The notes beneath the pieces are model-generated. The model was not told where the DNA came from, ran no database searches, and was given only the letters and a program-made list of their open reading frames with translations. This document shows, piece after piece, positions 2,542 through 33,120 of a stretch of DNA of 34,371 nucleotides (its first letter is position 1; each line of letters begins with the position of its first letter). The position numbers were made by a program, and so were the translations under genes. Where the stretch lies: contig DASVTZ010000004.1 in NCBI GenBank assembly GCA_036387335.1, forward strand, positions 1 to 34,371. Direction: 5' to 3'. The stretch is from Longimicrobium sp. GTDB lineage: Bacteria; Gemmatimonadota; Gemmatimonadetes; Longimicrobiales; Longimicrobiaceae.

Positions 2542-2583
2542 TTGCCGGGTGTTTTCGAGCGCTGACTACTGTTATGTGCTGAG

Positions 2584-2611
2584 GGGCGGGGACCGCGCGC
2601 GGTCCCCGCCC
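2584..2611. terminator. Perfect 28-bp palindrome, bidirectional-type terminator
   Basis: GGGCGGGGACCGCG at 2584-2597 is followed directly by its exact reverse complement at 2598-2611, then TCTTCCTTTC. It lies 43 bases after the secreted-protein gene and before the chemotaxis operon, so it separates the two transcription units. Confidence 0.65.
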
Positions 2612-2755
2612 TCTTCCTTTCACGCTTGGGCGGCGGTTATCTTGTTGCCCTTCCCCCTCGTCGCTCGAACGCCGCTCCTGGACGGACCTTCTGGCATACA
2701 TGGAACCGAAGAAGGCGCTCGTTGCGGGCGTGCAGCGGGTGGAGAGGGTGCCGGG

Positions 2756-3607: not shown

Positions 3608-4092
3608 AGCACGTCCATCACTTCGTAAAGGTGGCGCAGCACGCCGTGGGCGGGCGGGGCGACATGCTGGTGACGCTGGGGCTGGGCTCGTGCGTGGCGA
3701 TCCTCCTGCAGGATCCGAAAGCGGGGGTGATGGGGATGGCGCACGCCCTGCTCCCCGAGCCGGGGCTCTCGCGCGACGCCAGCAACCCCTTCAAGTTCGC
3801 CACCACCGCCGTCCCCGCACTGGTGCAGGAGCTGAAGGCGAGGGGGGCGCGCGAAGCCCGGCTGGAGGCGCGGCTGGTGGGAGGCGCGGCGATGTTCTCC
3901 GCGCTGATGGTGCCGGGGACGCTCAACATGGGGGAGCGCAACCTGCGCGCGGCCCGGGCGGCGCTGGAGGAGGCGGGGATCCCCATCCTGGGCGAGGAGG
4001 TGGGGCGCGACTACGGGAGGTCGGTGCGCATGACGATCGGGCCGGGGAACACCGTCGTCTCCTCCGTCGGCAAGCCGGATGTCGCTCTCTAA
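3604..4092 (+). CDS. cheD: Chemoreceptor glutamine deamidase CheD
   Basis: A 162-aa protein that deamidates receptor glutamines and, in some systems, binds CheC. The catalytic set is visible as Thr24, Cys30 (TLGLGSCV) and His47 (GMAHALLP). The spacing equals that of the T. maritima enzyme (Thr21, Cys27, His44). LVGGAAMF and NMGERN are further family motifs. The ATG overlaps the cheR stop as ATGA, implying translational coupling. The reading frame is open far upstream through cheR; that part is a high-GC shadow. No CheC is seen nearby. Confidence 0.95.
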   Translation: MKHVHHFVKVAQHAVGGRGDMLVTLGLGSCVAILLQDPKAGVMGMAHALLPEPGLSRDASNPFKFATTAVPALVQELKARGAREARLEARLVGGAAMFSALMVPGTLNMGERNLRAARAALEEAGIPILGEEVGRDYGRSVRMTIGPGNTVVSSVGKPDVAL

Positions 4093-5188
4093 CCCCGCGG
4101 GGCGCCCGCACACCGTCCTGGTGGTGGACGACAGCGCCTTCATGCGGAAGGTGATCTCGGACATCCTCTCGCGCGGCGACGAGTTCAGGGTGATCGGCAC
4201 GGCGCGCAACGGCAACGACGCGCTGCGCAAGGTCCACAAGCTGAACCCGGACCTGGTGACGATGGACGTGGAGATGCCGGAGCTGGACGGGCTCTCCGCG
4301 CTCGGCTACATCATGAGCGAGACGCCGCGCCCCGTGGTGATGCTTTCCGCGTACACCACCGAGCGCGCCGAGGCCACCATGCGCGCGCTGGACTACGGCG
4401 CGGTGGACTTCATCGCCAAGCCGTCGGGCACCATCTCGCCGGACCTGGCCAAGGTGGCGGACCAGCTGCTGGACGCCCTGCGCGCCGCCGCCGCCGCGAA
4501 CCTCGCGGCCGTGCCGGTGCGCATGCCGCGCCGCCCGCGCCCCGACCTGCCGCCCGCGCCGCCACGGAGCGCGCGCGCCGCCGGGGGCGCACCGTCCGAC
4601 GTGGCGGTGGCGATCGCGGCATCGACGGGCGGGCCGCGGGCGCTGGCGGAGGTGATCCCCCGCATCCGCAACCCGCTGGGCGCGGCGGTGCTGGTGGTGC
4701 AGCACATGCCCCCGAACTTCACCCGCACCCTGGCCGAGCGGCTCGATGGGCTGGGCGGGCTCTCGGTGAGCGAGGCGGAGCACGGCGAGCCGGTGCGGCG
4801 CGACCACGTCTACCTGGCACCCGGCGACTTCCACATGCGCGTGGTGCGCGAGGGCGGCGAGGTGAGGATCGCGCTGGACCAGGAGCCGTCCGTGTGGGGC
4901 GTGCGCCCGGCCGCCGATCCGCTCTTCCACAGCGTGGCGGCGGTGTACGGCGCGCGCTCCGTAGGCGTGGTGCTCACCGGGATGGGGCGCGACGGGGCCG
5001 ACGGGCTGCGCGCGATCCGCGAGGCGGGGGGCGGCGCGCTGGCCCAGGACCGCGCCACCGCCGTCATCTGGGGGATGCCGCAGGCCGCCGCGGAGTGGGC
5101 GGAGCTCGTCCTGCCGCTCGACCGCGTGCCGGAGGAGATCGCGGGCGCCGTGGATGCGCGCCCCATTCCGCTGGCGGGGACCGGATGA
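4079..5188 (+). CDS. cheB: Chemotaxis response regulator protein-glutamate methylesterase CheB
   Basis: A 369-aa protein with an N-terminal receiver domain (acidic Asp17/Asp18, phospho-acceptor Asp63 in TMDVEMPELDG) and a C-terminal methylesterase domain. The catalytic triad is Ser182 (ASTGGP), His209 (QHMPPNF) and Asp305 (GMGRDGADG). An Ala/Pro/Arg-rich linker (about 140-172) joins the domains. The gene overlaps cheD by 14 bases and its TGA overlaps the next ATG. It removes methyl groups opposite to CheR. Phosphorylation would need a CheA kinase, and none is present in this window. Confidence 0.96.
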   Translation: MSLSNPAGRPHTVLVVDDSAFMRKVISDILSRGDEFRVIGTARNGNDALRKVHKLNPDLVTMDVEMPELDGLSALGYIMSETPRPVVMLSAYTTERAEATMRALDYGAVDFIAKPSGTISPDLAKVADQLLDALRAAAAANLAAVPVRMPRRPRPDLPPAPPRSARAAGGAPSDVAVAIAASTGGPRALAEVIPRIRNPLGAAVLVVQHMPPNFTRTLAERLDGLGGLSVSEAEHGEPVRRDHVYLAPGDFHMRVVREGGEVRIALDQEPSVWGVRPAADPLFHSVAAVYGARSVGVVLTGMGRDGADGLRAIREAGGGALAQDRATAVIWGMPQAAAEWAELVLPLDRVPEEIAGAVDARPIPLAGTG

Positions 5189-5652
5189 GCGAGATGGACT
5201 TCCGCGCGCGCGCCGCGCTCGACGAGGGGGTGCAGGTGATCGCCTTCCGCATCGGCGGCGAGCTGCACGGGTGCGACATCCTCCTGGTGCACGAGGTGGT
5301 GGCGCGGCTCCCCGTCCATCCGCTTCCGGACATGCCGCCGCACCTGCTGGGCGTGGTGCGGCTGCGCGGCGAGCTGGTGCCGGTGCTGGACGTGGCCCCG
5401 TTGCTCGACCTGCGCCTGGAGGGCGTTCGCCCCGCCGTGCTCGTGACCGGCGAGGAGGGCGCGCGCGTCGGCGTCGCGGCGGACGGGGTGAGCGACGTGA
5501 TGACGGTGCCCCCCGGCGCGTTCAGGCCGGCGCCGCGCGGCGGCGGGTACCTGGTGGGAGTCGCCCGCGTGGGCGACCAGCTCGTCAACCTCATCGACCT
5601 GGCGGAGATCCTCCGCGACCAAGCCACCCTGTCCCACGGGGAAACGCCTTGA
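5185..5652 (+). CDS. cheW: CheW-like coupling protein (first copy)
   Basis: A 155-aa single CheW domain that scaffolds receptor-kinase arrays. Family features include VIAFRIGGELHGCDILLVHEVV, LLGVVRLRGELVPVLDV and a closing VNLIDLAEIL. The ATG sits in the cheB stop (ATGA). It is clearly diverged from the second CheW immediately downstream, so the two may couple different receptors or kinases. The VTGEEGARVGVAADGVSDV segment is the usual strand before the receptor-binding face. Confidence 0.9.
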   Translation: MSEMDFRARAALDEGVQVIAFRIGGELHGCDILLVHEVVARLPVHPLPDMPPHLLGVVRLRGELVPVLDVAPLLDLRLEGVRPAVLVTGEEGARVGVAADGVSDVMTVPPGAFRPAPRGGGYLVGVARVGDQLVNLIDLAEILRDQATLSHGETP

Positions 5653-6137
5653 GAAACGTACGCCAGGCGGCGGTGCCGCAGGTGCAGCTCGTCACCTTTC
5701 GCGTGGGGGGCGAGGAGTTCGGGCTGGACGTCTTCTCCGTGCACGAGATCCTCAGCTACCAGCAGCCCACCCCCATGCCCCGCGCCCCCGAGTTCGTGGA
5801 GGGCGTGCTGGACGTGCGCGGCACGCTGGTGCCCATCGTGGACCTGCGCCGCCGCTTCGAGACGCCCGAGGTGGTGTACGACCAGGAGACGCGCATCGTC
5901 CTCGTGGACTTCAACCACGAGCGGCTGGGGCTGGTGGTGGACAGCGTCACCGAGGTGCTGCGCGCGCCGGAGACGGCCGTGTCGCCGCCGCCGGCGTACA
6001 TCCGCGGGCTGGCGGCGGAGTTCGTGCGCGGCATCGTGCGGGTGGGCGAGCGGCTGGTGGTGCTGATCGACCTGGACCGCATCCTCAGCAGCGAGGAGCG
6101 CATCGCCCTGGCCCACGCGGACCCCGCCGGGGAATGA
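5649..6137 (+). CDS. cheW: CheW-like coupling protein (second copy)
   Basis: A 162-aa CheW domain: LVTFRVGGEEFGLDVFSVHEIL, VEGVLDVRGTLVPIVDLRRRF, IVLVDFNHERLGLVVDSV and RLVVLIDLDRIL. It is closer to textbook CheW than the first copy. No ATG is available at the junction. A TTG at 5649 overlapping the previous TGA (TTGA), with GGGG about 8 bases upstream, fits the 4-base-overlap pattern of the whole operon. A GTG at 5673 is an alternative that would shorten the protein by 8 residues. Confidence 0.9.
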   Translation: MRNVRQAAVPQVQLVTFRVGGEEFGLDVFSVHEILSYQQPTPMPRAPEFVEGVLDVRGTLVPIVDLRRRFETPEVVYDQETRIVLVDFNHERLGLVVDSVTEVLRAPETAVSPPPAYIRGLAAEFVRGIVRVGERLVVLIDLDRILSSEERIALAHADPAGE

Positions 6138-6982
6138 CGTTCGACGAGCTGAACGCCGCCCTCGAGGAGCGCTACACGCGCATCGAAGGCGAGCTGGAGT
6201 CCGCCGGCGAGGCGGCGCGCCCCGAGCGCGAACGGCTGCGCGGCGAGATCGTGGGGCTGTTCCGCGAGACGGAGGCGGCGCTGGAGCGGCTGGCCGAGTT
6301 CAAGGAGCGCATCCGCGGGCTGGTGGAGCGCTACAAGCAGCTCCCGTCACCAAAGGCCGCGCCGGCCGCGTCGACGGTTTCCGACCACCTGGGCTCGTCC
6401 ACGTACATCGAGCGCGGGTGGAGCGCCATCGCTGCGGGCGACGCGAGCCGCGCGGTCAAGGAGCTGGAGCGGGCCCTCTCGCTGGCTCCCAACGATCCGC
6501 AGGCGGAGTCGCTGCTGGGGTGGGCGCAGATGCTGCGCGAGCAGTACGACGAGGCGCTCTACACCTACAGCAAGGTGCTGATGCGTGACCCCAACAACCC
6601 GCTGGCGCGGGTGAACCTGGGGTACATCTGCCTCAAGAAGGGGATCTTCGGCGAGGCCATCGAGCACCTTTCCCGCGCCATCCGGCAGGACGACGACCGC
6701 AAGGCATCGCTGTACGCGCATCTCTACATGGGGATGCTGTACCTGGACCGCGAGATGTACGAGGACGCGCGCAGCTTCTTTCGCCGCACGCTGGAGCTGG
6801 GCCCCAACATGCTGCAGGCGTGGTGGGAGATCGGGCGGACCTTTTACCAGGAAGGGAACGTCTCCGCCGCCGCCGACGCGTGGCGGCGCGGCTTCGAGGC
6901 GAACCGCTTCAACCTGTGGGGGGAGCGGTGCGGGGAAGCGCTGAAGAAGCTGGACGCGGGCGAGCCGGTATCCTTCGCCTGA
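6134..6982 (+). CDS. Tetratricopeptide-repeat protein of the chemosensory operon
   Basis: A 282-aa cytoplasmic protein (no signal). Residues 1-75 are charged and predicted coiled coil. After a Pro/Ala linker, about 90-275 contains at least four TPR units, visible as ERGWSAIAAGDASRAVKELERAL, LLGWAQMLREQYDEALYTYSKVL and VNLGYICLKKGIFGEAIEHLSRAI. The ATG overlaps the second cheW stop (ATGA). TPR proteins in non-flagellar chemosensory clusters usually act as adaptors; that role here is inference from position only. Confidence 0.85.
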   Translation: MTFDELNAALEERYTRIEGELESAGEAARPERERLRGEIVGLFRETEAALERLAEFKERIRGLVERYKQLPSPKAAPAASTVSDHLGSSTYIERGWSAIAAGDASRAVKELERALSLAPNDPQAESLLGWAQMLREQYDEALYTYSKVLMRDPNNPLARVNLGYICLKKGIFGEAIEHLSRAIRQDDDRKASLYAHLYMGMLYLDREMYEDARSFFRRTLELGPNMLQAWWEIGRTFYQEGNVSAAADAWRRGFEANRFNLWGERCGEALKKLDAGEPVSFA

Positions 6983-11693: not shown

Positions 11694-11787
11694 ACGCACC
11701 GCGTTACCCCCGGTGACGCGTTCCCGCCGCAGTTCTGTTCCCGCTGTTCCTCTATCCCCACCGTTCCAACCCACACAGGAGTTCTGT

Positions 11788-12639
11788 ATGATCAAGCGTG
11801 TACTCGCGTCCGCACTGTGCCTCGGCGCCATGGCCATGGCCGCCCCCTCGCACGCCTCCGCGCAGGCGACCCGTACCTGGGTCTCGGGCGTGGGCGACGA
11901 CGTGAATCCCTGCTCGCGCACCGCCCCGTGCAAGACGTTCGCGGGCGCCATCTCCAAGACCGCCGCCGGCGGCGAGATCGACTGCCTGGACCCGGGCGGC
12001 TTCGGCGGGGTGACCATCACCAAGTCCATCACCATCGACTGCAACGGCGTGGTCGGCAGTGCCCTCTTCGCGGGTGCCACCAGCGGCATCAGCGTCAACG
12101 GCACCGACATCGTCGTCGTCCTCCGCAACCTGCAGGTCAACGGCGCGGGCACGGGGCAGGTCGGAATCCGGTTCGTCAACGGGAAGCGGCTCGTCATCGA
12201 GAACGTCCTCGTGTCCCAGGCCTCGCAGACGGGGATCCTGGTCAACTCGATGGCCGGCTCGGGCCACGTGGTGATCAACAACTCGCAAATCATCAACGGC
12301 ACCAACGACGGGATCCGGGTGAGCTACGGCGTCACCTCGATCAACAACTCGACGATCGCCGGCAACAGCATCTTCGCGCTGATCGCCGAGAACGGCGGGG
12401 TGATCAACGCCAACAACAACATGATCACCTACAACGGCATCGCGGTGCAGGCCGGCAACGGCGGCGCGGGCCAGAGCGGCTCGTTCGTGAACGTCTCCAA
12501 CAACGGCGTGCACGGGAACCTCACCGCCTTCGTGTGCGCGGGCGGGTTCGTGGCGTCGGACGGCAGCAACCGGCTGTCGAACAACGCCGGCGGCGGCGCG
12601 GCGCCCTGCACGCCGAACGCCACCATCACCAAGCAGTAG
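11788..12639 (+). CDS. Secreted right-handed beta-helix protein, paralogue 1
   Basis: A 283-aa protein with a signal peptide ending at about ASA-QA (residue 28). The mature part begins TRTWVSGVGDDVNPCSRTAPCKTFAGAI, the DUF1565/choice-of-anchor-Q style opening that precedes a parallel beta-helix, and continues with short Asn-rich coils (INNSQIING, INNSTIAGNS, INANNNMITYNGIAV). It ends with Cys pairs (FVCAGGF, APCTPN). AGGAG lies 6 bases before the ATG. No catalytic residues of a pectate lyase are evident, so it could be a surface or matrix protein. It is the first of three tandem copies; a 17-bp stem follows it. Confidence 0.8.
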   Translation: MIKRVLASALCLGAMAMAAPSHASAQATRTWVSGVGDDVNPCSRTAPCKTFAGAISKTAAGGEIDCLDPGGFGGVTITKSITIDCNGVVGSALFAGATSGISVNGTDIVVVLRNLQVNGAGTGQVGIRFVNGKRLVIENVLVSQASQTGILVNSMAGSGHVVINNSQIINGTNDGIRVSYGVTSINNSTIAGNSIFALIAENGGVINANNNMITYNGIAVQAGNGGAGQSGSFVNVSNNGVHGNLTAFVCAGGFVASDGSNRLSNNAGGGAAPCTPNATITKQ

Positions 12640-12646
12640 CCGCACC

Positions 12647-12685
12647 TTCCTCTCCGCGCCGCCACGCCGGCGGCGCGGAGAGGAA
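12647..12685. terminator. 17-bp stem hairpin between beta-helix genes 1 and 2
   Basis: TTCCTCTCCGCGCCGCC at 12647-12663 pairs perfectly with 12669-12685 around a 5-base loop, 8 bases after the stop of gene 1. The same arm sequence, with a bulged base, reappears after gene 2 (13639-13675), showing that the terminator was duplicated with the gene. Confidence 0.65.
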
Positions 12686-12777
12686 TCGCATCACACCGAG
12701 GCGCACTGGGGAAATCCCGTGACGCGCCCCCCCGCTGTTCGGCTCCGCCCCCGCCCCTTCCACAGAGAGGAACCCGT

Positions 12778-13626
12778 ATGATCAAGCGCATCCTGGCGAT
12801 CGCACTTTGTCTCGGCGCCGCCGCCACGGCCGCTCCTTCGAACGCCTCCGCGCAGGCGACCCGCACCTGGGTCTCGGGCGTGGGCGACGACGTGAATCCC
12901 TGCTCGCGCACGGCGCCGTGCAAGACGTTCGCGGGCGCCATCTCCAAGACCGCCGCCGGCGGCGAGATCGACTGCCTGGACCCGGGCGGCTTCGGCGCGA
13001 TCACGATCACCAAGTCCATCACCATCGACTGCAACGGAGTGATCGGCGGCGTCCTGTACTCGGCCGGCAGCGGCGTCACCGTCAACGGCACGGACATCGT
13101 CGTCACGCTCCGCAACATCCAGATCAACGGCCTGGGAACCGGCACCAACGGGGTCCGCTTCTTCAATGGGAAGCGCGTCATCCTCGAGAACGTCTTCATC
13201 ACCGGGAACGCCACGGCGGGGGTCGTGGTGAATTCGATGGCCGGCTCCGGCCACCTGGTGATCAACAACTCGGAGATCGTCAACGGCACCAACGACGGAA
13301 TCCGGGTGAGCTACGGCGTCACCTCGGTCAACAACTCGACGATCGCCGGCAACAGCATCTTCGCGCTGATCGCCGAGAACGGCGGGGTGATCAACGCCAA
13401 CAACAACATGATCACCTACAACGGCATCGCGGTGCAGGCCGGCAACGGCGGCGCGGGCCAGAGCGGGTCGTTCGTGAACGTCTCCAACAACGGCGTGCAC
13501 GGAAACCTCACCGCCTTCGTGTGCGCGGGCGGGTTCGTGGCGTCGGATGGCAGCAACCGGCTGTCGAACAACGCCGGCGGCGGCGCGGCGCCCTGCACGC
13601 CGAACGCCACCATCACCAAGCAGTAG
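12778..13626 (+). CDS. Secreted right-handed beta-helix protein, paralogue 2
   Basis: A 282-aa protein with the same signal peptide, Cys-containing opening and beta-helix coils as paralogue 1. Its last third is nearly base-for-base identical to gene 1: from about 13330 to the stop only three differences are visible against 12345-12639. The centre (GGVLYSAGSGVTVNG, GLGTGTNGVRFFNGK, FITGNATAGVVVNS) is clearly different. GAGAGGA lies 6 bases before the ATG. It lacks the promoter block found before genes 1 and 3, retaining only part of the leader. It may therefore depend on readthrough past the 12647 hairpin or on an unseen promoter. Confidence 0.8.
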   Translation: MIKRILAIALCLGAAATAAPSNASAQATRTWVSGVGDDVNPCSRTAPCKTFAGAISKTAAGGEIDCLDPGGFGAITITKSITIDCNGVIGGVLYSAGSGVTVNGTDIVVTLRNIQINGLGTGTNGVRFFNGKRVILENVFITGNATAGVVVNSMAGSGHLVINNSEIVNGTNDGIRVSYGVTSVNNSTIAGNSIFALIAENGGVINANNNMITYNGIAVQAGNGGAGQSGSFVNVSNNGVHGNLTAFVCAGGFVASDGSNRLSNNAGGGAAPCTPNATITKQ

Positions 13627-13638
13627 CAGCCGCGCGGC

Positions 13639-13731
13639 TTCCTCTCCGCGCCGCCGGGACGGGGCGCGGGAGGAACGCATCACGTGGAGCACGGACGAAG
13701 CGGGAGGACCTCCACAGGGGGGCCTCCCGCT
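13639..13731 (+). terminator. Two successive hairpins after beta-helix gene 2
   Basis: The first (13639-13675) is an imperfect copy of the 12647 stem with one bulged T. The second pairs AGCGGGAGG (13699-13707) with CCTCCCGCT (13723-13731) and is followed by CTTTCC. Together they should end transcription of gene 2. Confidence 0.55.
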
Positions 13732-13882
13732 CTTTCCGTGTCTCCGTCTGACGTTGCCGCCGGCCGGTCGGGGTCGTGGCGGGGCGGAGGACCGGCGCGC
13801 CGGGGAAGCTCATGGGCCGCTTCGTCTTGACGCAAACCGGGCGCATGCGGCGCGAGCCCCCGGCCCGCTGAAGGTCGGGGAC

Positions 13883-13911
13883 TGTGCAAAACGCTCCGAT
13901 GATGCTATCGT
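13883..13911 (+). promoter_or_regulatory. Promoter of beta-helix gene 3, conserved block
   Basis: TGTGCA (13883-13888), 17-bp spacer, TATCGT (13906-13911) with the extended TG. It lies inside the 43-bp block shared with 11668-11710, and the following leader (GTGACGC.TTCCCGCCGCAGTT) is also shared. Confidence 0.55.
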
Positions 13912-14007
13912 ACGCACCGCGTTACCCCGCGTGACGCATTCCCGCCGCAGTTTCGTTCCCGCTCTTCCCGTTCCTGTCGACCAATCCGCACCCACAGAGG
14001 AGTTCTC

Positions 14008-14856
14008 ATGATCAAGCGTGCACTGGCTTTCGCGACGTGCCTCGTCGCCGTGGCCTTCGCTGCCCCTTCGGCCGTTTCCGCGCAGGCGACCCGCACCTGG
14101 GTCTCGGGCGTGGGCGACGACGTGAATCCCTGCTCGCGCACCGCCCCGTGCAAGACGTTCGCGGGCGCCATCTCCAAGACCGCGGCCGGCGGCGAGATCG
14201 ACTGCCTGGACCCGGGCGGCTTCGGCGCCGTGACCATCACCAAGTCCATCACTATCGACTGCAACGGGGTGACCGGCGGCTCCCTCTTCGCGGGTGCCAC
14301 CAGCGGCATCAGCGTGAACGGCACGGACATCGTGGTGGTGCTCCGCAACCTGCAGATCAACGGCGCGGGGACGGGGCAGGTTGGCGTCCGCTTCGTGAAC
14401 GGCAAGCGCGTCATCATGGAGAACGTCCTGGTTGCCCAGGCCTCGGTGGCCGGGGTGCTGGTGAGCTCGATGGCCGGCTCCGGGCACCTGGTGATCAACA
14501 ACTCGCAGATCCTCAACAACTACGACGGGCTCCGCGTCGGCTACGGCATCACGTCGATCAGCAACTCGACCATCGCCGGCAACCAGATCTTCGCGCTGAT
14601 CGCCGAGAACAGCGGCGTCATCAACGCCCACGACAACCTGATCGCCAGCAACGGGATCGCGGTGCAGGCCGGCAACGGCGGGGCGGGGCAGGCCAGCGCG
14701 ACGGTGAACATCTCCAGCAACGGCGTCAACGGAAACCTCACCGGCTTCGTGTGCGCCGGCGGGATCGTGGCCTCGGACGGCACCAACCGGAAGTCGAACA
14801 ACTCGGGCGGCGGCGCGGTGCCCTGCTCGCCGAACGGCGTCATCACCAAGCAGTAG
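14008..14856 (+). CDS. Secreted right-handed beta-helix protein, paralogue 3
   Basis: A 282-aa protein. The signal peptide, opening (WVSGVGDDVNPCSRTAPC) and central coils (LFAGATSGISVNGTDIVVVL, GAGTGQVGVRFVNGK) match paralogue 1 closely. The C-terminal third (NNYDGLRVGYGITSISNS, INAHDNLIASNG, GQASATVNISSNG) has drifted from both others. GAGGAG precedes the ATG by about 5 bases. It has its own copy of the conserved promoter and a strong terminator. As with its paralogues the fold is recognised but no enzyme activity is. Confidence 0.8.
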   Translation: MIKRALAFATCLVAVAFAAPSAVSAQATRTWVSGVGDDVNPCSRTAPCKTFAGAISKTAAGGEIDCLDPGGFGAVTITKSITIDCNGVTGGSLFAGATSGISVNGTDIVVVLRNLQINGAGTGQVGVRFVNGKRVIMENVLVAQASVAGVLVSSMAGSGHLVINNSQILNNYDGLRVGYGITSISNSTIAGNQIFALIAENSGVINAHDNLIASNGIAVQAGNGGAGQASATVNISSNGVNGNLTGFVCAGGIVASDGTNRKSNNSGGGAVPCSPNGVITKQ

Positions 14857-14900
14857 CCGCAACCGCGCCTCACACGGAGGCACAGAGGGAAACGACGAGG

Positions 14901-24172: not shown

Positions 24173-27100
24173 ATGCGCTTCTGGAGCTGGCTGAGTCGCG
24201 GATTGAGGAGCCTGCTCGCTGGAGCGAATTCCGACTCCGACGCACACTCCCAAGGAGTTGAGACGCCAACGCAGTCCGGCATGGACACGAGTTCTGCGGT
24301 AGCAGCAGGCGCTCGCGCTGTCGCGATCGGCGGAAACGCGGACAGGAGCACCATCGTTACGGGAGACTACGTAACTGTCCACGTCAGTTACAGTGCACCC
24401 GAAGCTCACGAGAGCCACCAACGCGCCATCGAAACACTCGCCCTCGTGCGGCAGATCGCGGCCAATCAGCCCGCGCATGTTGCCATACCGCCTGCCCCCG
24501 AGGCGGAGCAAACCCGTTGGTCTGCGAAGCTCGACCTAGTCAGAGAGCTGATCAACAGCGGGAAACTGGCGTCGGCGCTGGCGGCGCTTGACGCGATGGA
24601 GCGCGACTCCGCCCCGCCGGCTGTCGATGTGGAGTTGGAGCGTTTGCACCGGTACTCCGGTATCGTACTGTACCGAGTCGGCCGCACTGCAGAGGCTCGG
24701 GAGCGACTGCAGAAGGCTCTGACATACAACCCCCGGGAGTTTTCGACCCTCGCCATCATGGCCGCAGTGCATTCATCGCTTGGCCACAATGACGAGGCTA
24801 TCGGCTTTGCGCAGCGTGCGGTCGCCTTGGATCAAGCGTCCGCGTCCGCATGGGCGATCCTCTGCGACGCAGCGACTGCCGCCGGGCAGGAGGTGGATGT
24901 CCCCGAGGCGATCGCGAGAGCCCCGGAGGTGCTCGTCTCGCGAGCCAACGCCGCGCTTGTAAAAGAAGAATGGACTTCCGCGATCCAGTTGCTCGAAGAT
25001 GCCGCCGGTGCGGCTGGGGCGTCCGGTTACTCCCGAATGCTGCTCCTCGCGCATGCGTACATCGCCCGGAGCCGATCGTCGGACCCGGTGCATGCCGCTT
25101 GTGATCTGAACGCGGCGCGGCGAGTGGTGGATGAACTCCTGGTTACAGTTCCAGAGGACGACGAGAAGCCACGATATGTCAGCCAGGCACTCCTGCTTCG
25201 GGCCGCCGTCCGGGGCCGACTCGGGGATGCAGACGGCGAGCTGCAGGATCTTCGTGCGGCGGTTCGGAACGATCCCAGCTCCACCGCGGCGGTGTTCACC
25301 CTGTCAGCGGCTTACCTGGAGCGCGATAGGCCCGGTGAAGCTGCTGAACTCCTCGCGGACCATCCTGAACTCGGAAATGATCCGATGCTTGGGGCGCTCC
25401 GCCCTTCCATACTTCGGGCTACCGGTCAGTCCGCCGAGCAGGTGCGGTCTGCGCTGATAGAGGCACTCCGCAGGGCTTTCGGCGCACCGAACGAGGCACA
25501 GATCAGGACCATGCTCGCGGAGATTGCGCTGGAGGCGGAGCTGATCGACGCCGCGGTGGATCTGCTCGCCACCGTCACCGAAGCGGACTACTGGTTCCAA
25601 ACCATCCTCCGCGCCAGGATTGCGGACCGGTCGGGGGACGCGCACGGGGCGAATGTCCTGTATCGCCGCGCTGTCGAGACCGCTTCTACGAACGATCAGG
25701 TCGGAGCGCGGATGGAGTGGGCATCGTTCCTCCGTCGCCAGGGCGATCTGGAGGCTGCGCTGGCGCAGCTGACCGCGGCGGACGCAGCTAGTGCCGACGA
25801 GGACACGCGCCGGCGTTACGTGAAGTGGCTGCACGAGGCTGGCGATTACGAACGGGTTGCAGAAGTCGTAGACCGCGCAAACCGCGACGGGATCCGCTCT
25901 GCGTGGGTGCTCGAGGTCCAGAGTTGGCTCGCACACGTCCGGGGGGACGTACCGGGCGAGCTCCGCACCCTTTCAGAGTGGATCAAAGTGGAGCCGGGGC
26001 GCGCAGATGCGCACCTCAACCTTGCACACGCGCACCTGCGTCTGGGCGATCGGGAAACGGCTGCGGCCGTTCTCGATGGCTTTACGCACCTCTCGGTACT
26101 CACTCCAACCGAGGAGATGGGCTTCGCGCAACTACTGTTTGAAGTAGGCCGCGTCGGCGCCGGCTTGGAGATGGCGCTTCACGCTGTCCGGCGGGACCGT
26201 TCCGATGAGAGGCTCAAGGGTGCGTTCGCCCATATGTTCCTGAGTCGTAGGGATTCGGTTCTGAGCACTCCCCCCACCAAGGTTGCGGCCGGGGTGCACG
26301 TGGTTCTTGTGGGACAGAGCGGGGAGCGACAGGAGTACACGATTTTCGCCGATGAACCAGTAGATCCGTCACGCGGAGAGTACCTACCCACGGACCCGGT
26401 CGTTCAGTCACTCATCGGGTTGACAAAAGGAGAACGCGTTGTGCGGCGGCCTGGGGCGCCGACGGAGGCGGTATACGAGGTAGCCGAGTTGAAGCCAGTG
26501 CTGCTGCACATGTTTCATCAGATTCTGAGCCGGTTCGGTCAGGAGCACCCCGACAGCCGGATCATGCAGCAGGTCCACATCGGTGAGGAGCCCTCTCTCC
26601 AGCGGTTCGCGCCCGTCATTCAGTCGGTGTTTCAGCGCGCAGCAGGTGCCGACGAAGCGGTGCGCGTATACGAGGAGCTGAGGGTCCCGCTGGGATCTCT
26701 CGCCGCAATACTGGGACGCAGAATTCCTGATGTTTATGCTTACCTTGCCGGTACCGATGGCAAGCATCTGTATGCGGAGTTCGGGGATGCGCTGCACTTC
26801 GAGTTGGCTGTGCGGGAGGCGTCCCAGCCAACTATCGTTCTGACACGGTCAGCGCTCCTCACTGCGGGTGAGCTCGGGTTTCGACATCAACTACCTGAGT
26901 GGTTTGTGCGCCTGATCGTACCTCGGTCCCTCGTCGACGATCTCGCCGACGAGCTCAGGGAGCTTGAGAAACCGCTGGGTGAGAGCCGACAGACACTGAG
27001 CTCGACCGGAGGCCGGCTCGTCCTCCACGAGTTTACTCATGAAGAGCTTCGCACCGCTAAGGCGGAGCGGGAGGAGGTCCTTCGCTGGGTTCGTGACACG

Positions 27101-27730
27101 TGCTCCGTCGAACCGCTGCCTTCCAATTCGCTCACGACTGCGGATCGGTGGTGGCGTGAGGCCATCGGCACCAGCTCATACGACTCCTACGTTCTGGGGG
27201 TCGCGCTGAACATACCGGTGCACGCGGACGACCTGGGGTTGCGCCTCGTGTCTCCCGGAGATTGTGGCAAGCAAGTACGGGGATTCTCGAGTTCGGCGCT
27301 TCTTACGTCGTTGCATGCGCGGCGTATGCTGGAATCCGCCGAGTACCACCGGCACCTCACGCGGCTCGTGGAACTCCAGCATGTGCACGTACCGGTCTCT
27401 TCAAGCTTATTTGAGGCGGTGCTGTTCGAGGCGGGGTTTTTGGTCGATCCGAGTGTAATGAGGGTATTCGCCCGGCTGTCAGGCGTCTACTCGCTCGCTC
27501 AAGACGCGATCGATGTGGCTGCGGAGCTCATCAGGGCTGTTGCCAAGTCGACCGCCTCTCATCGACTTTACGCGGTGGCGACCCTCTGCATGGAGTACCT
27601 GTGGGACGGCCACCCGCAGCCGGGGACGCTCTCCGCATTCGCCGCCGCTGTCCGCATAAGGTTGTATCTTCTCCCGCTGGCGAGGGACAGCTTCGAGCAG
27701 GCCCTCAATGACTTCCGTCAGGCGCGGTAG
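24173..27730 (+). CDS. Large TPR / GreAB-C-like / PIN-like conflict-system protein
   Basis: A 1185-aa cytoplasmic protein. Residues 43-70 repeat the partner's motif (AVAIGGNADRSTIVTGD). About 110-700 is a long array of TPR-like helices (VLYRVGRTAEARERLQKALTYNP, EAIGFAQRAVALD, DAHLNLAHAHLRLGDRETAAAVL). About 705-770 resembles the C-terminal domain of GreA/GreB (EYTIFADEPVDPSRGEYLP, VVQSLIGLTKGERVVRR, YEVAELKP). About 885-1030 is PIN-like (PTIVLTRSALLTAGELGF; SYDSYVLGVALNIPVHADDL), with a helical C-terminal region. This order matches what I recall as the TPR-GreAB-C-PIN predicted conflict system; the PIN part would be the RNase effector. The first PIN position, usually Asp, is Thr here. Third-position GC is visibly lower than in the che cluster, suggesting transfer. 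Confidence 0.75.
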   Translation: MRFWSWLSRGLRSLLAGANSDSDAHSQGVETPTQSGMDTSSAVAAGARAVAIGGNADRSTIVTGDYVTVHVSYSAPEAHESHQRAIETLALVRQIAANQPAHVAIPPAPEAEQTRWSAKLDLVRELINSGKLASALAALDAMERDSAPPAVDVELERLHRYSGIVLYRVGRTAEARERLQKALTYNPREFSTLAIMAAVHSSLGHNDEAIGFAQRAVALDQASASAWAILCDAATAAGQEVDVPEAIARAPEVLVSRANAALVKEEWTSAIQLLEDAAGAAGASGYSRMLLLAHAYIARSRSSDPVHAACDLNAARRVVDELLVTVPEDDEKPRYVSQALLLRAAVRGRLGDADGELQDLRAAVRNDPSSTAAVFTLSAAYLERDRPGEAAELLADHPELGNDPMLGALRPSILRATGQSAEQVRSALIEALRRAFGAPNEAQIRTMLAEIALEAELIDAAVDLLATVTEADYWFQTILRARIADRSGDAHGANVLYRRAVETASTNDQVGARMEWASFLRRQGDLEAALAQLTAADAASADEDTRRRYVKWLHEAGDYERVAEVVDRANRDGIRSAWVLEVQSWLAHVRGDVPGELRTLSEWIKVEPGRADAHLNLAHAHLRLGDRETAAAVLDGFTHLSVLTPTEEMGFAQLLFEVGRVGAGLEMALHAVRRDRSDERLKGAFAHMFLSRRDSVLSTPPTKVAAGVHVVLVGQSGERQEYTIFADEPVDPSRGEYLPTDPVVQSLIGLTKGERVVRRPGAPTEAVYEVAELKPVLLHMFHQILSRFGQEHPDSRIMQQVHIGEEPSLQRFAPVIQSVFQRAAGADEAVRVYEELRVPLGSLAAILGRRIPDVYAYLAGTDGKHLYAEFGDALHFELAVREASQPTIVLTRSALLTAGELGFRHQLPEWFVRLIVPRSLVDDLADELRELEKPLGESRQTLSSTGGRLVLHEFTHEELRTAKAEREEVLRWVRDTCSVEPLPSNSLTTADRWWREAIGTSSYDSYVLGVALNIPVHADDLGLRLVSPGDCGKQVRGFSSSALLTSLHARRMLESAEYHRHLTRLVELQHVHVPVSSSLFEAVLFEAGFLVDPSVMRVFARLSGVYSLAQDAIDVAAELIRAVAKSTASHRLYAVATLCMEYLWDGHPQPGTLSAFAAAVRIRLYLLPLARDSFEQALNDFRQAR

Positions 27731-27811: not shown

Positions 27812-29029
27812 TCAGTACCGGAACGCCACCTTGATGCTCCCGCTCCCCTTCTTGTCCATCGCGGTGAGGAGGGCGTCGCGGAGCTGGTCGAGGCGGAAGG
27901 TGTGGGTAAGGAGGGGGGCGAGGCGGGCGCGGCCGTCGGCGACGAGGGCGGCGGCTTCGGTGAAGGCGTGGGCGCCGGCGCCGCCGTGGGAGTGGCCGCT
28001 GTAGCAGAGGCTGCCGCGGATGGTCAGCTCCTTGAGCCAGACCGGGCTCCAGTCGATCCCGTTGAGCTGCGTGCTGTTGCCCAGGAGCACGATGGTGCCG
28101 CCGGAGCGGGTGAAGCGGAGCGCGTCCTCCATGCCGCGCACGCCGCCCACGCACACGTACACCTGGTCGAACCCGCCCACCGCGATGCGCTTGCCGATAA
28201 TCGGCTTGAGGAGGCGTGCGCCCGAGATCTCGGCCAGCGCCTCGAAGTAGTCGCCGCGGCCGCTGACGGTGCGGGCGGCGCCCAGGCGCTCGGCCTGCTC
28301 GGCCTGGAAGGGGTACCGCGCCACGATCGTCACGTCCGCGGTGGGGGCGAGCGCCTGGAGGGCGGCGACGGTCACGAGGCCGATGGCGCCCGAGCCGATC
28401 ACCAGCACGCGCGCACCGGCGGGCGGCAGGTTCGCGCGCACGGCCTGGACGGAGCAGGCGAGCGGCTCGATCAGCACCGCCTCCTCGTCGGCCAGCGAGT
28501 CCGGCACCGCGACGAGCTGGCTCTGGTGCGCCACGAACTCCTCGCCCCAGCCGCCGCCCAGGCCCTTCGTGGTGCCGATGAGCATCCCGGGCGCGAGGTG
28601 GCCGTCGGTGAAGTGCTCGCAACGCGAAGGGTGACCGTCCGCGCAGCCGGCGCAGAGGGGCTCGACGCCGCGCGGGACGCAGGAGAGCAGGGGATTCACT
28701 ACCACGCGCTGCCCGACGCCCCACCCCTTCACCGCCGCGCCCAGCTCCGCCACCGTGCCGACGTTTTCGTGACCGGGGGTGAACGGGAACGACGAAAAGG
28801 GCGAGGTGGAGGGTGATGCGCTCAGCGTCACAATGCCGAGGTCGCTTCCGCAGATGCCGCCCATCCGCGTCTGGATGCGCACCCAGTCGGGGCCGGGGAG
28901 GGCGGGGGAGGGAGCGTCGGAGAGGCGGGTGCAGGAGTGCGGCCCCACGTACAGGCCGGAGTTCAGCCGCCCGGCGCCGGCGGTGACCAGGTAGCGTGGG
29001 ATGGGCGCCGCGAAGGTGACCGCCTTCAC
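27812..29029 (-). CDS. Zinc-dependent alcohol dehydrogenase family protein
   Basis: A 405-aa medium-chain dehydrogenase. Catalytic zinc ligands are in GGICGSD and PGHENVG. The structural zinc loop has four Cys (CVPRGVEPLCAGCADGHPSRC in outline). The Rossmann motif is VLVIGSGAIGLV, followed by the substrate cap and C-terminal KKGSGSIKVAFRY. The GTG at 29029 overlaps the kinase gene stop by four bases. It is the last gene of the lipid-type operon and could reduce a keto intermediate. Its 3' end is duplicated at 18977, 20441 and 23293. It converges with the large PIN gene (81 bases apart) with no clear terminator between them. Confidence 0.92.
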   Translation of the reverse strand: MKAVTFAAPIPRYLVTAGAGRLNSGLYVGPHSCTRLSDAPSPALPGPDWVRIQTRMGGICGSDLGIVTLSASPSTSPFSSFPFTPGHENVGTVAELGAAVKGWGVGQRVVVNPLLSCVPRGVEPLCAGCADGHPSRCEHFTDGHLAPGMLIGTTKGLGGGWGEEFVAHQSQLVAVPDSLADEEAVLIEPLACSVQAVRANLPPAGARVLVIGSGAIGLVTVAALQALAPTADVTIVARYPFQAEQAERLGAARTVSGRGDYFEALAEISGARLLKPIIGKRIAVGGFDQVYVCVGGVRGMEDALRFTRSGGTIVLLGNSTQLNGIDWSPVWLKELTIRGSLCYSGHSHGGAGAHAFTEAAALVADGRARLAPLLTHTFRLDQLRDALLTAMDKKGSGSIKVAFRY

Positions 29030-29925
29030 GCCGGCACCCCCGGCGTCACCACCCGCAGCGCCGCGGGGAGCGATGTGATCTCCAGCCGCGCGCTGCTCGC
29101 GCGGTTGTACTCGCCGTCCGTCTCGTAGGCGGGGGGCGAGTCGAAGTCGAGGGTGAAGGCGCGCGCCTGCTCCACCTTGACCTCGGGCGCGGTGACGTGC
29201 GTTCCCTTGATCGCGGCGCCGAAGATGGAGATGCGGCGCGCGGCCGAGGCGTCGAGGATGCTGACCGCGTCCAACATGCCGTCGGTGAGCGACGCGCCCG
29301 GCGCGATGGCGAAGGCGCCGCCAAAGTTGCGCGCGTTGGCCACGATCAGCATCAGGTGCCGCCCGCGCGAGGTGCCCGCGGCCGTAGTCAGCCCGATGTC
29401 GACGCCGCGGTAGCCGAACAGCTGGCGGACGGCGGAGAACATGTACAGCGCGTTGCCGCGCAGCAGGGGGATGCGACCCACGTCCTCGAGCACGGCGATG
29501 TCGAACCCGAAGCCGGAGACGTTCAGGAAGTGGCGGTCCTCGATGCGGCCCACGTCCACCCGCGTGTCCGGGCCCTCGACGGCCAGGCGCGCGGTGGCCT
29601 CCGGGTCGCCCGCGGGGGAGCCGGTCGTCTTGGCGAAGTCGCACCCCGTGCCGCCCGCGAGCAGCGCCAGGCGCACGTCGGCGCGCGCGCCCAGGATCTG
29701 GTTCGCCACGTTGCTCCAGGTGCCGTCGCCGCCCACGGCCACCAGCGTGTCGAAGCCGTCCTCGATGGCGCGCCGGGCCAGCTCGCCCTCCTGCCCCGGC
29801 CCCGTGCTGACCCGAACGTCGGTGACTCCGTGCGCGGCGAAGGCGGCCTTCACGCGGGGGAGCAAGCGCGAACCCCGCCCCCTTCCGGCGGCGGGGTTCG
29901 CGATGACGCATACCCGGTGGGTCAC
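29026..29925 (-). CDS. Diacylglycerol/sphingoid-kinase family lipid kinase
   Basis: A 299-aa protein of the DAGK catalytic fold. VIANPAAGRGRG at the start, VAVGGDGTWSNVANQIL (nucleotide-binding GGDGT) and LLAGGTGCDFAKT are family landmarks, and PPAYETDGE near the end is the usual C-terminal D-G-E motif. The family includes bacterial DgkB/YegS and eukaryotic sphingosine kinases, and sequence alone does not fix the lipid. The GTG at 29925 overlaps the preceding stop (GTGA); the longer open frame upstream is antisense shadow. In this operon a sphingoid-base or related amino-alcohol substrate is plausible. Confidence 0.88.
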   Translation of the reverse strand: MTHRVCVIANPAAGRGRGSRLLPRVKAAFAAHGVTDVRVSTGPGQEGELARRAIEDGFDTLVAVGGDGTWSNVANQILGARADVRLALLAGGTGCDFAKTTGSPAGDPEATARLAVEGPDTRVDVGRIEDRHFLNVSGFGFDIAVLEDVGRIPLLRGNALYMFSAVRQLFGYRGVDIGLTTAAGTSRGRHLMLIVANARNFGGAFAIAPGASLTDGMLDAVSILDASAARRISIFGAAIKGTHVTAPEVKVEQARAFTLDFDSPPAYETDGEYNRASSARLEITSLPAALRVVTPGVPA

Positions 29926-30620
29926 GGCTGCACCGTCATGGCGAGCTCGCGCAGCGGCTGAAAGGTCTGCACCCCGCCGCGCATCCACATCTCGCGGATC
30001 GGCAGCTCGCTCACCTCCTCCAGCTCGTCGAGCGGCTCCGTCATCGGGTGGGGGTAGAGCTTCAGGTAGCCGCCCTCCTCCTCGCTCTCGCTCAGCGCGC
30101 CCTGCATGGTGATTTCGGCCAGGAAACCACCCGCCTCGTCGAACATGAACGACTGGTGAAGCTGCGCCGCGTCGCGCCATCCGTGCGAGGTGATCGCCAT
30201 CTCCACGATCGGCCGTCCCTCGTCCGACACGCGGACCATCATGCGGCCGTTGCTCGCGTCCGGCTCCATCGACATCTGCACGTCGCGCATGTAGTGCGGC
30301 AGGTGCCAGCGCTCGATGGCGTGCTCACGGGCCTCGCGCGTGGTGGTGCCCAGCAGGAAGGGGTAGAAGGCGGAGTGCGGCATCGCCATCCCCGGCTCCA
30401 CGCGCGGCGAGACGAGGATGCCCAGGATGACCTCCTGGTACGCGCCCACCATGCTCTCGCTGAAGTCGAACGCCATCACCGACAGGATGCCGGAGCCGTG
30501 GTGCAGCTCCGCCGGCTGCAGGTGGCGCGGGAGGATGGCGCGGGCCTGCTCCACCGGGAACTCGAAGAAACCGCCCACCGCGTTGCGGAAGACGTAGACC
30601 GTGGTGCCGTCCTGGCTCAT
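29922..30620 (-). CDS. Acetoacetate decarboxylase-like protein
   Basis: A 232-aa cytoplasmic protein. FFEFPVEQARAILPRHLQP, the beta-barrel strands ILSVMAFDFSESMVGAYQEV and the TTREAREHA segment resemble the acetoacetate decarboxylase superfamily. I do not see the classic active-site Lys context, so it may catalyse another reaction or only bind a lipid or ketone. The ATG overlaps the PLP-enzyme stop (ATGA) and the end overlaps the kinase start. Placement between an alpha-oxoamine synthase and a lipid kinase suggests it works on the amino-ketone product. Family call moderate, function unknown. Confidence 0.65.
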   Translation of the reverse strand: MSQDGTTVYVFRNAVGGFFEFPVEQARAILPRHLQPAELHHGSGILSVMAFDFSESMVGAYQEVILGILVSPRVEPGMAMPHSAFYPFLLGTTTREAREHAIERWHLPHYMRDVQMSMEPDASNGRMMVRVSDEGRPIVEMAITSHGWRDAAQLHQSFMFDEAGGFLAEITMQGALSESEEEGGYLKLYPHPMTEPLDELEEVSELPIREMWMRGGVQTFQPLRELAMTVQP

Positions 30621-31936
30621 TTGAGGATTCCTTCCTGGCGAAGCACGGAGACCAGGATCTCGCTCGCGCGCTCGAGCTGCGCGAAGTTGTGGGCGGCGGA
30701 TACGGAGATGCGGAAGCGCGAGCGGTTCTTGGTGACGGCGGGGTACTTCACGGGCTGCACGTACAGCCCGGACTCCTGCATGCGCCGCCCGATCCCCATC
30801 ACGCGGCGGTCGTCGCGCACCATGACCGGGATGATCTGCGAGGTGGACTCGCCCACGTCCACGCCGTGTTCGGCGAGCAGCCCGCGCATGTGCGCGACGT
30901 TGGCCCAGAGCCGGTCCCGCAGCTCCGGCTCGCGCTGCACGATGCGGAGCGCCTCCAGCACCCCCGCCGCGATCACCGGCGACAGCGCGCACGAGAAGAA
31001 GCGCGAGCGGGAGAAGGCGTCCAGGTAGCGCTTCATCTGGAGCGAGCAGGCCACGTAGCCGCCCATCCCGCCCAGCGCCTTGCTGAACGTTCCCAGGTGG
31101 ATGTCGATCTCGTCCTTGAGCCCGAACTGCTCCGCCACCCCGCCGCCGTTGGGGCCGTAGATGAAGGACGAGTGCGCCTCGTCGATCATGATGCGGGCGC
31201 CGTATCGCTTCGTCACCTCCACGATCTCGGGGAGGGGGCAGACGTCGCCGTCCATGGAGTAGACGCCCTCCACCACGACGAGCACCTTCTTGCCGGCCAC
31301 CTTTTTGAGCTGCTTCTCCAAGTTCTCCGGCTGGTTGTGCCGGAAGAAGCGCGTGTCCGCCTTGCTCAGGATGGCGCCGTCTACGCAGCTCGCGTGGGCG
31401 TTCTGGTCCATGATGACCACGTCGCCCGCGCGCATCAGCCCCGAGATGAGCCCGACGTTGGTGGAGTAGCCGGACGGGTAGATTATGGCCGCCTCGGTGC
31501 CCTTGAAGCGCGCGATCTCGTTCTGCAGCTCCTCGTGCACCTCCATGGTGCCGCTCAGGATGGGCGACCCCGCGGCGCCGAGGCCGTAGCGGTCGAGCGC
31601 GCTCTTGGCGGCGTCGATCACCTCCTGGCGGTACGAAAGCCCCAGGTAGTTGTACGACGACAGGTTCAGAAGCTGCAGCCGGCGCTTGCCGATCGGCTCC
31701 TGCACCTCCACCTGCGGCTTCGGCGCGGCGGCCATCGGCTGGCCCAGGAGGAAGTACCCCGTGGGGCGCACCTCGTCGTACCACTCGTTGTACGGCGTGA
31801 GCACCGCCAGCACGTCGTCGCTGCTCGAGTAGTAGAAGCTGTTGAGGTCGTGCTCCGTGGCGCGCGGGGGCGGGGGAGCCTCGACTTCATCGAGCCAGCG
31901 GTCCGGCTGTACCGCGGCGGTGCTCACACTCTCCAT
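30617..31936 (-). CDS. Alpha-oxoamine synthase, serine palmitoyltransferase/AONS-like
   Basis: A 439-aa PLP-dependent enzyme condensing an amino acid with an acyl thioester. Landmarks are LNLSSYNYLGLS, HASCVDG (PLP-stacking His), VVEGVYSMDGD, IDEAHS (Asp252) and the Schiff-base Lys286 in GTFSKALGG. An N-terminal extension of about 75 residues with FYYSSSDDVLAVLTPYNEWYDE is longer than in E. coli BioF or Kbl and recalls serine palmitoyltransferases, as does SYNYLG. CqsA-like or BioF function cannot be excluded. GGAGGAG 4 bases upstream fixes the start at 31936; the frame upstream is not gene-like. First gene of the operon. The 261 bases before it show no clear promoter. Confidence 0.9.
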   Translation of the reverse strand: MESVSTAAVQPDRWLDEVEAPPPPRATEHDLNSFYYSSSDDVLAVLTPYNEWYDEVRPTGYFLLGQPMAAAPKPQVEVQEPIGKRRLQLLNLSSYNYLGLSYRQEVIDAAKSALDRYGLGAAGSPILSGTMEVHEELQNEIARFKGTEAAIIYPSGYSTNVGLISGLMRAGDVVIMDQNAHASCVDGAILSKADTRFFRHNQPENLEKQLKKVAGKKVLVVVEGVYSMDGDVCPLPEIVEVTKRYGARIMIDEAHSSFIYGPNGGGVAEQFGLKDEIDIHLGTFSKALGGMGGYVACSLQMKRYLDAFSRSRFFSCALSPVIAAGVLEALRIVQREPELRDRLWANVAHMRGLLAEHGVDVGESTSQIIPVMVRDDRRVMGIGRRMQESGLYVQPVKYPAVTKNRSRFRISVSAAHNFAQLERASEILVSVLRQEGILK

Positions 31937-32197
31937 GGGGCTCCTCCAGGTGGATACCGCCACCCGCGTCTGGGTCGGCGGGCCCGCTGAGCGGCTCCTG
32001 CCCCGCATGCTGGCGGGGACGGGGATGGCTCGCGGGACGTCGTCGGGATAGTCGGCGGCCCGGCCCTGCTTGGGCGCGGGACGAGATCGGTTCTGAAGCG
32101 GGTCGTGATGGGCCGGCAAGCGCCGGGTCGCGATGCAGCGGGTCTGTACAGCGTTAGCACTTTTATCGCGCGCGGGAGACAACCGCATTCCACAACG

Positions 32198-33001
32198 CTA
32201 TCCATGCGTTTCCGCCTCCGCAACCCCGCGAGGCGCCGGAAGCGTAACACGGCCGTTCTGCGGTCCCAATTCGTGGAGCAGCTCGTCGCGCGCGGAGTCG
32301 ATCATGGCGCGCACGCGGTCGCGGAGCGCGGGGACGTCCGCCAGCGTGAGACCGTCCGTCTCCACCGGAGGTAGAACGCGGGCCACGGCGCGGGCGGGGT
32401 TCATCACCCAGCTCCCCTTGGCGAGCGCATGGTTGGCTCCCGCAACCGCGATGGGGAGCACCGGGCACTTCAACTCCACCGCCAGGCGGAACGCGCCGTC
32501 CTGGAACGGGCCCAGGCGGCCGTCGAGCGTGCGGGTGCCTTCGGGCATGATGAGGATCGAGACGCCCCTCTCCAGCCGGTCGCGGCACTGCTCCAGGGCG
32601 CGGCCGCGGCTGCGGGTGCTTCCGCGCTCCACGCCCACGTCGCCGGCCATGCGCATCATCCACCCCATCAGCGGGATGTTGAACGCGGTCCGCCTGGCCA
32701 GCCACTTCATCTCCCAGGGGAGAAGGCTGATCAGAAAGATGTCCGCGATGCTCTCGTGGTTCGCGACGGCCACGTACGGGCGCCGCGGATCGGTGATGCG
32801 CACGCCCTCGGTGCGGAAGCGCCAGAGCGGGTTGAGCTTCACCACCGTCACCGCCGCGCGCCGGAACCACCAGCCAACCGCGTACCGCCCCGGGTCGCGC
32901 GGCACGGTCACCACGTACAGCAGCGCCATGGTGGGGACCCAGACCAGCCCCACCATCAGCATGCTCGCCCAGGACCAGAGGGAGATCAGTCGTCGGAGCA
33001 C
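32198..33001 (-). CDS. PlsC-type 1-acylglycerol-3-phosphate acyltransferase
   Basis: A 267-aa membrane-associated acyltransferase. A hydrophobic N-terminal helix (ASMLMVGLVWVPTMALLYVV) is followed by the catalytic NHESIAD (HxxxxD), FNIPLMGWMMRM, then ILIMPEGTRT (acyl-acceptor motif) and PVLPIAVAG. The open frame extends to a TTG at 33115, but a promoter (33059-33085) lies within that extension. The GTG at 33001 is therefore preferred even though no Shine-Dalgarno is visible. It lies beside, but on a separate unit from, the sphingoid-type operon and is transcribed the same way. It would acylate lysophosphatidate or a related lipid. Confidence 0.9.
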   Translation of the reverse strand: MLRRLISLWSWASMLMVGLVWVPTMALLYVVTVPRDPGRYAVGWWFRRAAVTVVKLNPLWRFRTEGVRITDPRRPYVAVANHESIADIFLISLLPWEMKWLARRTAFNIPLMGWMMRMAGDVGVERGSTRSRGRALEQCRDRLERGVSILIMPEGTRTLDGRLGPFQDGAFRLAVELKCPVLPIAVAGANHALAKGSWVMNPARAVARVLPPVETDGLTLADVPALRDRVRAMIDSARDELLHELGPQNGRVTLPAPRGVAEAETHG

Positions 33002-33058
33002 TGAGGCGGCTTGTGGGGCGGACGGTACGAGGGGAGCGACGAGGGATTGCCGACTAGG

Positions 33059-33085
33059 AATATAACGAAATCCGCCATTCGGCAA
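33059..33085 (-). promoter_or_regulatory. Candidate promoter of the acyltransferase gene
   Basis: On the minus strand TTGCCG (33085-33080) and TATATT (33064-33059) are 15 bp apart. The -10 is strong and the spacer short. Transcription would begin near 33052, about 50 bases before the GTG at 33001. Confidence 0.4.
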
Positions 33086-33120
33086 TCCCGCCGCCTCGTC
33101 GGAGACAGAGAACAACAGCG

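Follow-up and report, generated by a model that had tools for sequence, protein, structure and literature searches.

A conserved alpha-oxoamine synthase operon in a Longimicrobium relative probably opens an apparently undescribed pathway to a phosphorylated sphingolipid-like membrane lipid

To our knowledge, sphingolipids are rare in bacteria and only in a few lineages have their biosynthetic routes been worked out. We questioned what might be made by an operon of a soil bacterium, a Longimicrobium relative, in which an alpha-oxoamine synthase (AOS) is followed by a protein of the acetoacetate decarboxylase (ADC) superfamily, a YegS/DAGK-type kinase and a Zn-dehydrogenase. These four intact genes run from 31936 to 27812 on the minus strand of the window, the whole stretch of 34,371 nucleotides that was analyzed, and the features of the locus are as follows.

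30617..31936, minus strand: alpha-oxoamine synthase (AOS), 439 aa, leading the run of overlapping genes (Pfam, NCBIfam, tree, residues)
31941..31947, minus strand: Shine-Dalgarno-like GGAGGAG before the AOS start codon (read from the sequence)
29922..30620, minus strand: ADC-superfamily protein, 232 aa (Pfam, model fold, alignment)
29026..29925, minus strand: YegS/DAGK-type lipid kinase, 299 aa, GTG start, GGDG motif (Pfam, NCBIfam)
27812..29029, minus strand: Zn-dependent medium-chain dehydrogenase, 405 aa, GTG start, candidate ketone reductase (Pfam, NCBIfam)
30617..30620, minus strand: ATGA stop/start overlap, AOS to ADC (sequence)
29922..29925, minus strand: GTGA stop/start overlap, ADC to DAGK (sequence)
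29026..29029, minus strand: GTGA stop/start overlap, DAGK to dehydrogenase (sequence)
32198..33115, minus strand: PlsC-type acyltransferase, start codon uncertain (Pfam; same arrangement in Longimicrobium YPbin7, L080)

A sequence-only reading of this DNA had described a four-gene operon with 4-bp overlaps at every junction, and the three junctions and all four frames proved to be as it stated. Pfam likewise agrees with the domain identities it had given, assigning PF00155 to the AOS, PF06314 to the ADC-like protein (E 2.7e-8, above cut-off), PF00781 and PF19279 to the kinase, which also passes the YegS family model TIGR00147, and PF08240 and PF00107 to the Zn-dehydrogenase. Third-position GC of the four genes is about 0.95, and a promoter scan for the operon found none. 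The PlsC-type gene, 261 bp upstream of the AOS on the same strand, is a probable member of the gene set. Four-base overlaps are common in bacterial operons; those seen here indicate translational coupling yet are ordinary, and the real evidence lies in conservation.

Elsewhere in the window, a gene convergent with the 3' end of the operon (24173-27730, plus strand) encodes a 1185-aa protein with TPR, GreA/B-C and PIN domains (PF20698, PIN-TPR-GreABC), a proposed conflict- or defence-type architecture. Three tandem, highly similar and secreted-looking ORFs of about 282 aa occupy 11713-14883 on the plus strand (approximately 11785-12639, 12778-13626 and 14008-14856); they share blocks that are almost identical, which points to gene conversion or a recent duplication. 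Genes that look chemosensory by eye (CheR-, CheD-, CheB- and CheW-like) precede a TPR protein at 2549-6982, also on the plus strand.

To assess conservation, we surveyed 249 genomes of the phylum and found the ADC-like protein (P0002) in 47. The AOS, scored as present at E<=1e-100, occurs in exactly the same 47 genomes and is adjacent to the ADC-like gene in every one of them (Fisher p 6e-52), with 0-118 bp between the aligned stretches. It is this AOS/ADC-like conservation, together with an AOS-ADC-DAGK order seen again in several other phyla, and not the overlaps, that is beyond chance. A scan of genome contigs yielded 80 named loci, mostly from Gemmatimonadota, with others from Acidobacteriota/Vicinamibacteria, Krumholzibacteriota and Latescibacterota and a number of bins that bear other labels. 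The AOS-ADC-DAGK order is maintained in most loci that carry the AOS, and the gene order is common to Gemmatimonadota, Acidobacteriota, Krumholzibacteriota and Latescibacterota, so that the operon, whose synteny the sequence-only reading had left to be checked across the phylum, is conserved there and recurs beyond it. Among named relatives, Longimicrobium sp. YPbin7 is the nearest (92% for P0002); the module is absent from two other sampled genomes of the window's genus, and P0002 had no plasmid match. At least two ADC-like copies are present in 20 genomes, and these are often split, one beside the AOS and the other beside the kinase/PlsC/Tam41-like/CDP-transferase genes. One genome (G069, L061-L063) has three ADC-like paralogues, two of them without AOS and kinase neighbours.

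In the window's family the Zn-dehydrogenase follows the kinase unless the contig stops there; it does so too in most of f5 and in a few further families, and no linked reductase was seen in family f3 loci. An SDR gene lies directly upstream of the AOS in all ten Acidobacteriota loci inspected, and in Gemmatimonadota the Zn-dehydrogenase lies downstream of the AOS instead. We read the SDR of Acidobacteriota and the Zn-dehydrogenase found elsewhere as two probable alternative ketone reductases.

Closer inspection of the AOS revealed the catalytic residues of the family (PLP lysine K286, stacking H181, D252, H255 and R409). In a maximum-likelihood tree of 44 sequences, all 31 module AOS form one branch (100/100) outside BioF, Kbl and ALAS; this branch adjoins SPT with weak support (86/60), and its exact sister is unsure given two SPT references and several long reference branches. 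The clade carries the signature GSPILSGT in place of the GSR, or comparable Arg, present in almost every other sequence, and its private residues include P125, H280 and C316. The AOS reaches no NCBIfam equivalog cut-off: the highest-scoring model is BioF (367.8 bits, below cut-off), and the three SPT models give 347, 332 and 270 bits against cut-offs of 640, 500 and 670. With SPT structures from Sphingobacterium (3a2b), its best PDB match, and Sphingomonas (2w8t), the nearest references sampled, it shares the PLP residues and 36-38% identity, but it has GSP for GSR, and neither cut-off nor clade places it within SPT in a tree holding two SPT references. Identity as BioF, Kbl or ALAS was rejected on equivalog scores and tree position, and the PLP enzyme does not cluster with BioF or Kbl, the placement that the sequence-only reading had treated as telling against it. 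CqsA structures are among the weaker PDB matches, and CqsA identity was rejected by score alone (218 bits against a cut-off of 428). The amino acid substrate is most likely serine, a choice made on pathway logic because the kinase needs a hydroxyl.

The second gene poses a different problem. A model of the ADC-like protein (pLDDT 92) matches acetoacetate decarboxylases at Z 21-22 over about 205 residues, one match being Z 21.7 over 206 residues and the next family reaching 8.3, and the fold resembles the ADC superfamily (3bh2, MppR, Swit_4259) over the whole chain. A PDB sequence-profile search for ADC relatives returned no match, leaving the relation visible by fold comparison only. Aligned by profile with three ADCs of solved structure, the protein gives only a weak match (E 0.007); in this weak alignment the register around the active-site proline sets His109-Tyr110 at Lys115-Lys116 of ADC. 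Across 119 module homologues, position 109 is His in 116, Tyr in 2, Thr in 1 and Lys in none, E63 at the Glu76 position of ADC is conserved in 118, and R98, P108, E182, R209, E210 and W212 are also conserved. Unlike the characterized superfamily, the module protein thus has its Schiff-base lysine replaced and an AOS as partner. An ordinary decarboxylase role was rejected since Schiff-base Lys115 is missing in 119/119 homologues, and without that lysine decarboxylation cannot be assumed; the protein appears to be an ADC fold lacking the known ADC mechanism. The ADC label of the sequence-only reading therefore holds for the fold and not for the catalytic residue. Its remark that such a member lies outside known bacterial sphingolipid pathways agrees with the sphingolipid papers searched, in which we found no relevant mention of ADC-like proteins. 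The pairing of an AOS with a lysine-free ADC-fold protein points to a putative novel enzymatic step.

We then considered the genes linked to the module in most relatives, namely a PlsC-type acyltransferase (PF01553), a Tam41-like protein and a CDP-alcohol phosphotransferase (PF01066). In most Gemmatimonadota they are transcribed divergently from the AOS, but they are collinear with it in Acidobacteriota, several of which have six collinear genes in an operon led by the SDR reductase. The PlsC of the window and the linked PlsC found in relatives have only weak similarity. The Tam41-like protein has no Pfam match, and Tam41 is the top PDB match of its profile at E 0.1. Its AlphaFold model (pLDDT 81) aligns with bacterial Tam41 7ecd at Z 20.4 (next unrelated family 7.2) and with mitochondrial Tam41 at Z 16.6-17.4, so that it has a fold in common with Tam41 CDP-DAG synthases (7ecd, 6ig2; Z 16.6-20.4) but only about 12% identity and an extra conserved C-terminal region. 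On this modelled fold we term it CDP-lipid synthase-like, with putative activity; no relevant literature was found on bacterial Tam41. Of the 47 module genomes, 38 have this gene (p 9e-34); so do two others of the 249, G075 and G127, in which both the AOS and the ADC-like gene of the module are missing. In the CDP-alcohol transferase, the catalytic motif D..DG..AR..(8)G...D...D is invariant in 12 aligned sequences, and its nearest NCBIfam models, below cut-off, are archaetidylinositol-phosphate and PI-phosphate synthases; these traits suggest a possible inositol-phosphate-type head group. MIPS was considered as support for an inositol head and is uninformative, being present in 227/249 genomes. 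On the Diaphorobacter plasmid pDCB2 (L179, 7754-15633), a conjugative IncP plasmid with mercury resistance genes, a Tam41-like protein adjoins a CDP-alcohol transferase, and genes for a lysophospholipid acyltransferase and a DAGK-type kinase lie close by; the stretch fetched has no annotated AOS.

This gene content can be compared with known sphingolipid systems. The Caulobacter ceramide phosphoglycerate cluster comprises SPT, the proven ceramide kinase CpgB (CC_1160), CC_1161 (CpgA), proposed to contain a CDP-DAG-synthase domain and to act through an NDP-activated ceramide, and the CDP-alcohol transferase CC_1159 (PMC11324152, PMC10331486). We tested homology to CpgA and CpgB through a Roseomonas plasmid cluster only, which encodes a CDP-alcohol transferase, a DAGK-family kinase, an AOS, ACP, an acyl-AMP ligase, GNAT and SDR/epimerase proteins. 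The Tam41-like family is homologous to a hypothetical protein of this cluster (blastp E 9e-23; hhalign 99.6%, E 3e-24) that adjoins the kinase, lies near the AOS and corresponds to CC_1161 by gene order; the module and Roseomonas kinases share a weak 108-aa match (E 0.006). The module resembles the Caulobacter/Roseomonas clusters in having an AOS, a DAGK-superfamily kinase, a CDP-DAG-synthase-like protein and a CDP-alcohol transferase, but its AOS belongs to a different clade, its kinase is YegS-type, its operon lacks the GNAT ceramide synthase, epimerase-type reductase, ACP and acyl-AMP ligase, and it has PlsC, an ADC-fold protein and either a Zn-dehydrogenase or an SDR in addition. The Bacteroides inositol lipid cluster BT_1522-1526 likewise has, in a sphingolipid context, a CDP-alcohol transferase resembling PIP synthases, but unlike the module it contains neither an ADC nor an AOS nor a kinase; BT_1523 yields a diacylglycerol-based product, and it is an AUR1-like synthase that transfers inositol phosphate to ceramide (PMC9246714).

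The window's own genome encodes a second AOS on contig C41, which scores highest with an SPT model (498/640 bits) and is flanked by a GNAT and an epimerase-type reductase that are 41% and 35% identical, respectively, to their Roseomonas counterparts.

C41 5577-8934, minus strand: canonical-looking ceramide cluster of GNAT, SPT-like AOS and epimerase-type reductase (sequence comparison)

Two downstream C41 ORFs, 5563-6612 and 4536-5549, were set aside as probable wrong-frame artefacts by codon-position GC, the real GNAT lying in another frame. The C41-type AOS is found in 95/249 genomes, and both AOS types coexist in 2 genomes against 18 expected. This low coexistence suggests functional replacement; it mostly splits families and may reflect phylogeny. 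No Tam41-like gene was found in the window's genome (assembly 96% complete, 265 contigs), and its only strongly scoring CDP-alcohol transferase adjoins MIPS and is probably the housekeeping PI synthase. For these reasons, the product in Longimicrobium may stop at the phosphorylated lipid, or the operon may borrow housekeeping enzymes. Our literature searches returned no relevant paper on AOS or SPT in Gemmatimonadota, and for the polar lipids of Longimicrobium they yielded nothing of use.

We weighed this evidence against other explanations. A divergent SPT operon making ordinary dihydroceramide phosphates, with ADC and PlsC as accessories, would account for the Sphingobacterium SPT structural match, for SPT as the nearest, weakly placed tree reference and for the kinase, CDP-lipid synthase-like protein and CDP-alcohol transferase that parallel Caulobacter and Roseomonas. 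We nevertheless consider it unlikely: the AOS falls far short of the 640-bit SPT cut-off and sits in its separate clade with private residues, and the GNAT ceramide synthase and epimerase-type reductase (CerS-like and CerR-like) are missing from the operon and stand beside the second, SPT-like AOS on C41. Primary metabolism, in which a BioF or Kbl/threonine-catabolism unit would use the Zn-dehydrogenase as threonine 3-dehydrogenase, draws on BioF as the top-scoring model and on tdh among the dehydrogenase's NCBIfam matches, yet the tdh score is 92 against a 458-bit cut-off, every score is below its curated cut-off, the AOS lies outside BioF and Kbl and the neighbourhood consists of lipid enzymes, which makes this idea scarcely credible.

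AOS enzymes are known to make CAI-1-type signals, and a secreted CqsA-like amino-ketone or alpha-hydroxyketone, modified by the kinase and dehydrogenase, fits the weaker CqsA structural matches and the signal pathway raised by the sequence-only reading. We regard such a signal as highly improbable given the CqsA-type score and the linked acyltransferase, Tam41-like and CDP-alcohol transferase genes, which indicate membrane phospholipid synthesis and favour a pathway to a phospholipid over one to a free amino-ketone signal. A true beta-keto acid decarboxylase making methyl-ketone-type amines would agree with the ADC fold and with E63 at the Glu76 position, but with His in place of the Schiff-base lysine in nearly all homologues, we find it rather implausible. 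AOS enzymes themselves decarboxylate their amino-acid substrate, a further point against that role.

Our best reading is that the module represents a bacterial phosphosphingolipid-type pathway in new form, and the operon is probably the front end of a conserved, apparently undescribed route to a phosphorylated sphingolipid-like membrane lipid. From the genes, linkage, co-occurrence, folds and motifs observed, we infer substrates, reaction order, product and a role for the ADC-fold protein as follows. The AOS would condense a fatty acyl thioester with an amino acid, probably serine, into a 2-amino-3-keto chain; the ADC-fold protein might then carry out a lysine-independent step on this product or on a keto intermediate, after which the Zn-dehydrogenase, or the SDR in Acidobacteriota, would reduce the ketone. 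A PlsC-type enzyme would acylate the reduced product, the YegS-type kinase would phosphorylate the lipid, a Tam41-like/CpgA-like enzyme may form a CDP-lipid in most relatives, and the CDP-alcohol phosphotransferase would exchange CMP for a polar head group. The synthase, reductase and kinase logic of the sequence-only reading survives as part of one conserved unit, though the linked genes for an acyltransferase, a CDP-lipid synthase-like protein and a CDP-alcohol transferase had escaped it; of its new lipid or signal pathway, the sphingoid-like side is partly supported and extends to a phospholipid, and the free amino-ketone signal is disfavoured.

More tentatively, the module could be a second, independently assembled route to amino-backbone membrane phospholipids, built on a new AOS clade, a lysine-independent ADC-fold partner and CDP-lipid activation, which replaces canonical sphingolipids in Gemmatimonadota, Acidobacteriota, Krumholzibacteriota and Latescibacterota and yields a lipid class not yet described. 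The gene set rarely co-occurs with canonical SPT in Gemmatimonadota and supplies defined genes to express, and the module lends independent genetic support to the CDP activation proposed in Caulobacter (PMC11324152). Conserved as a set of six to seven genes in several mostly uncultured phyla, it predicts which bacteria would be makers of phosphorylated sphingoid-like lipids.
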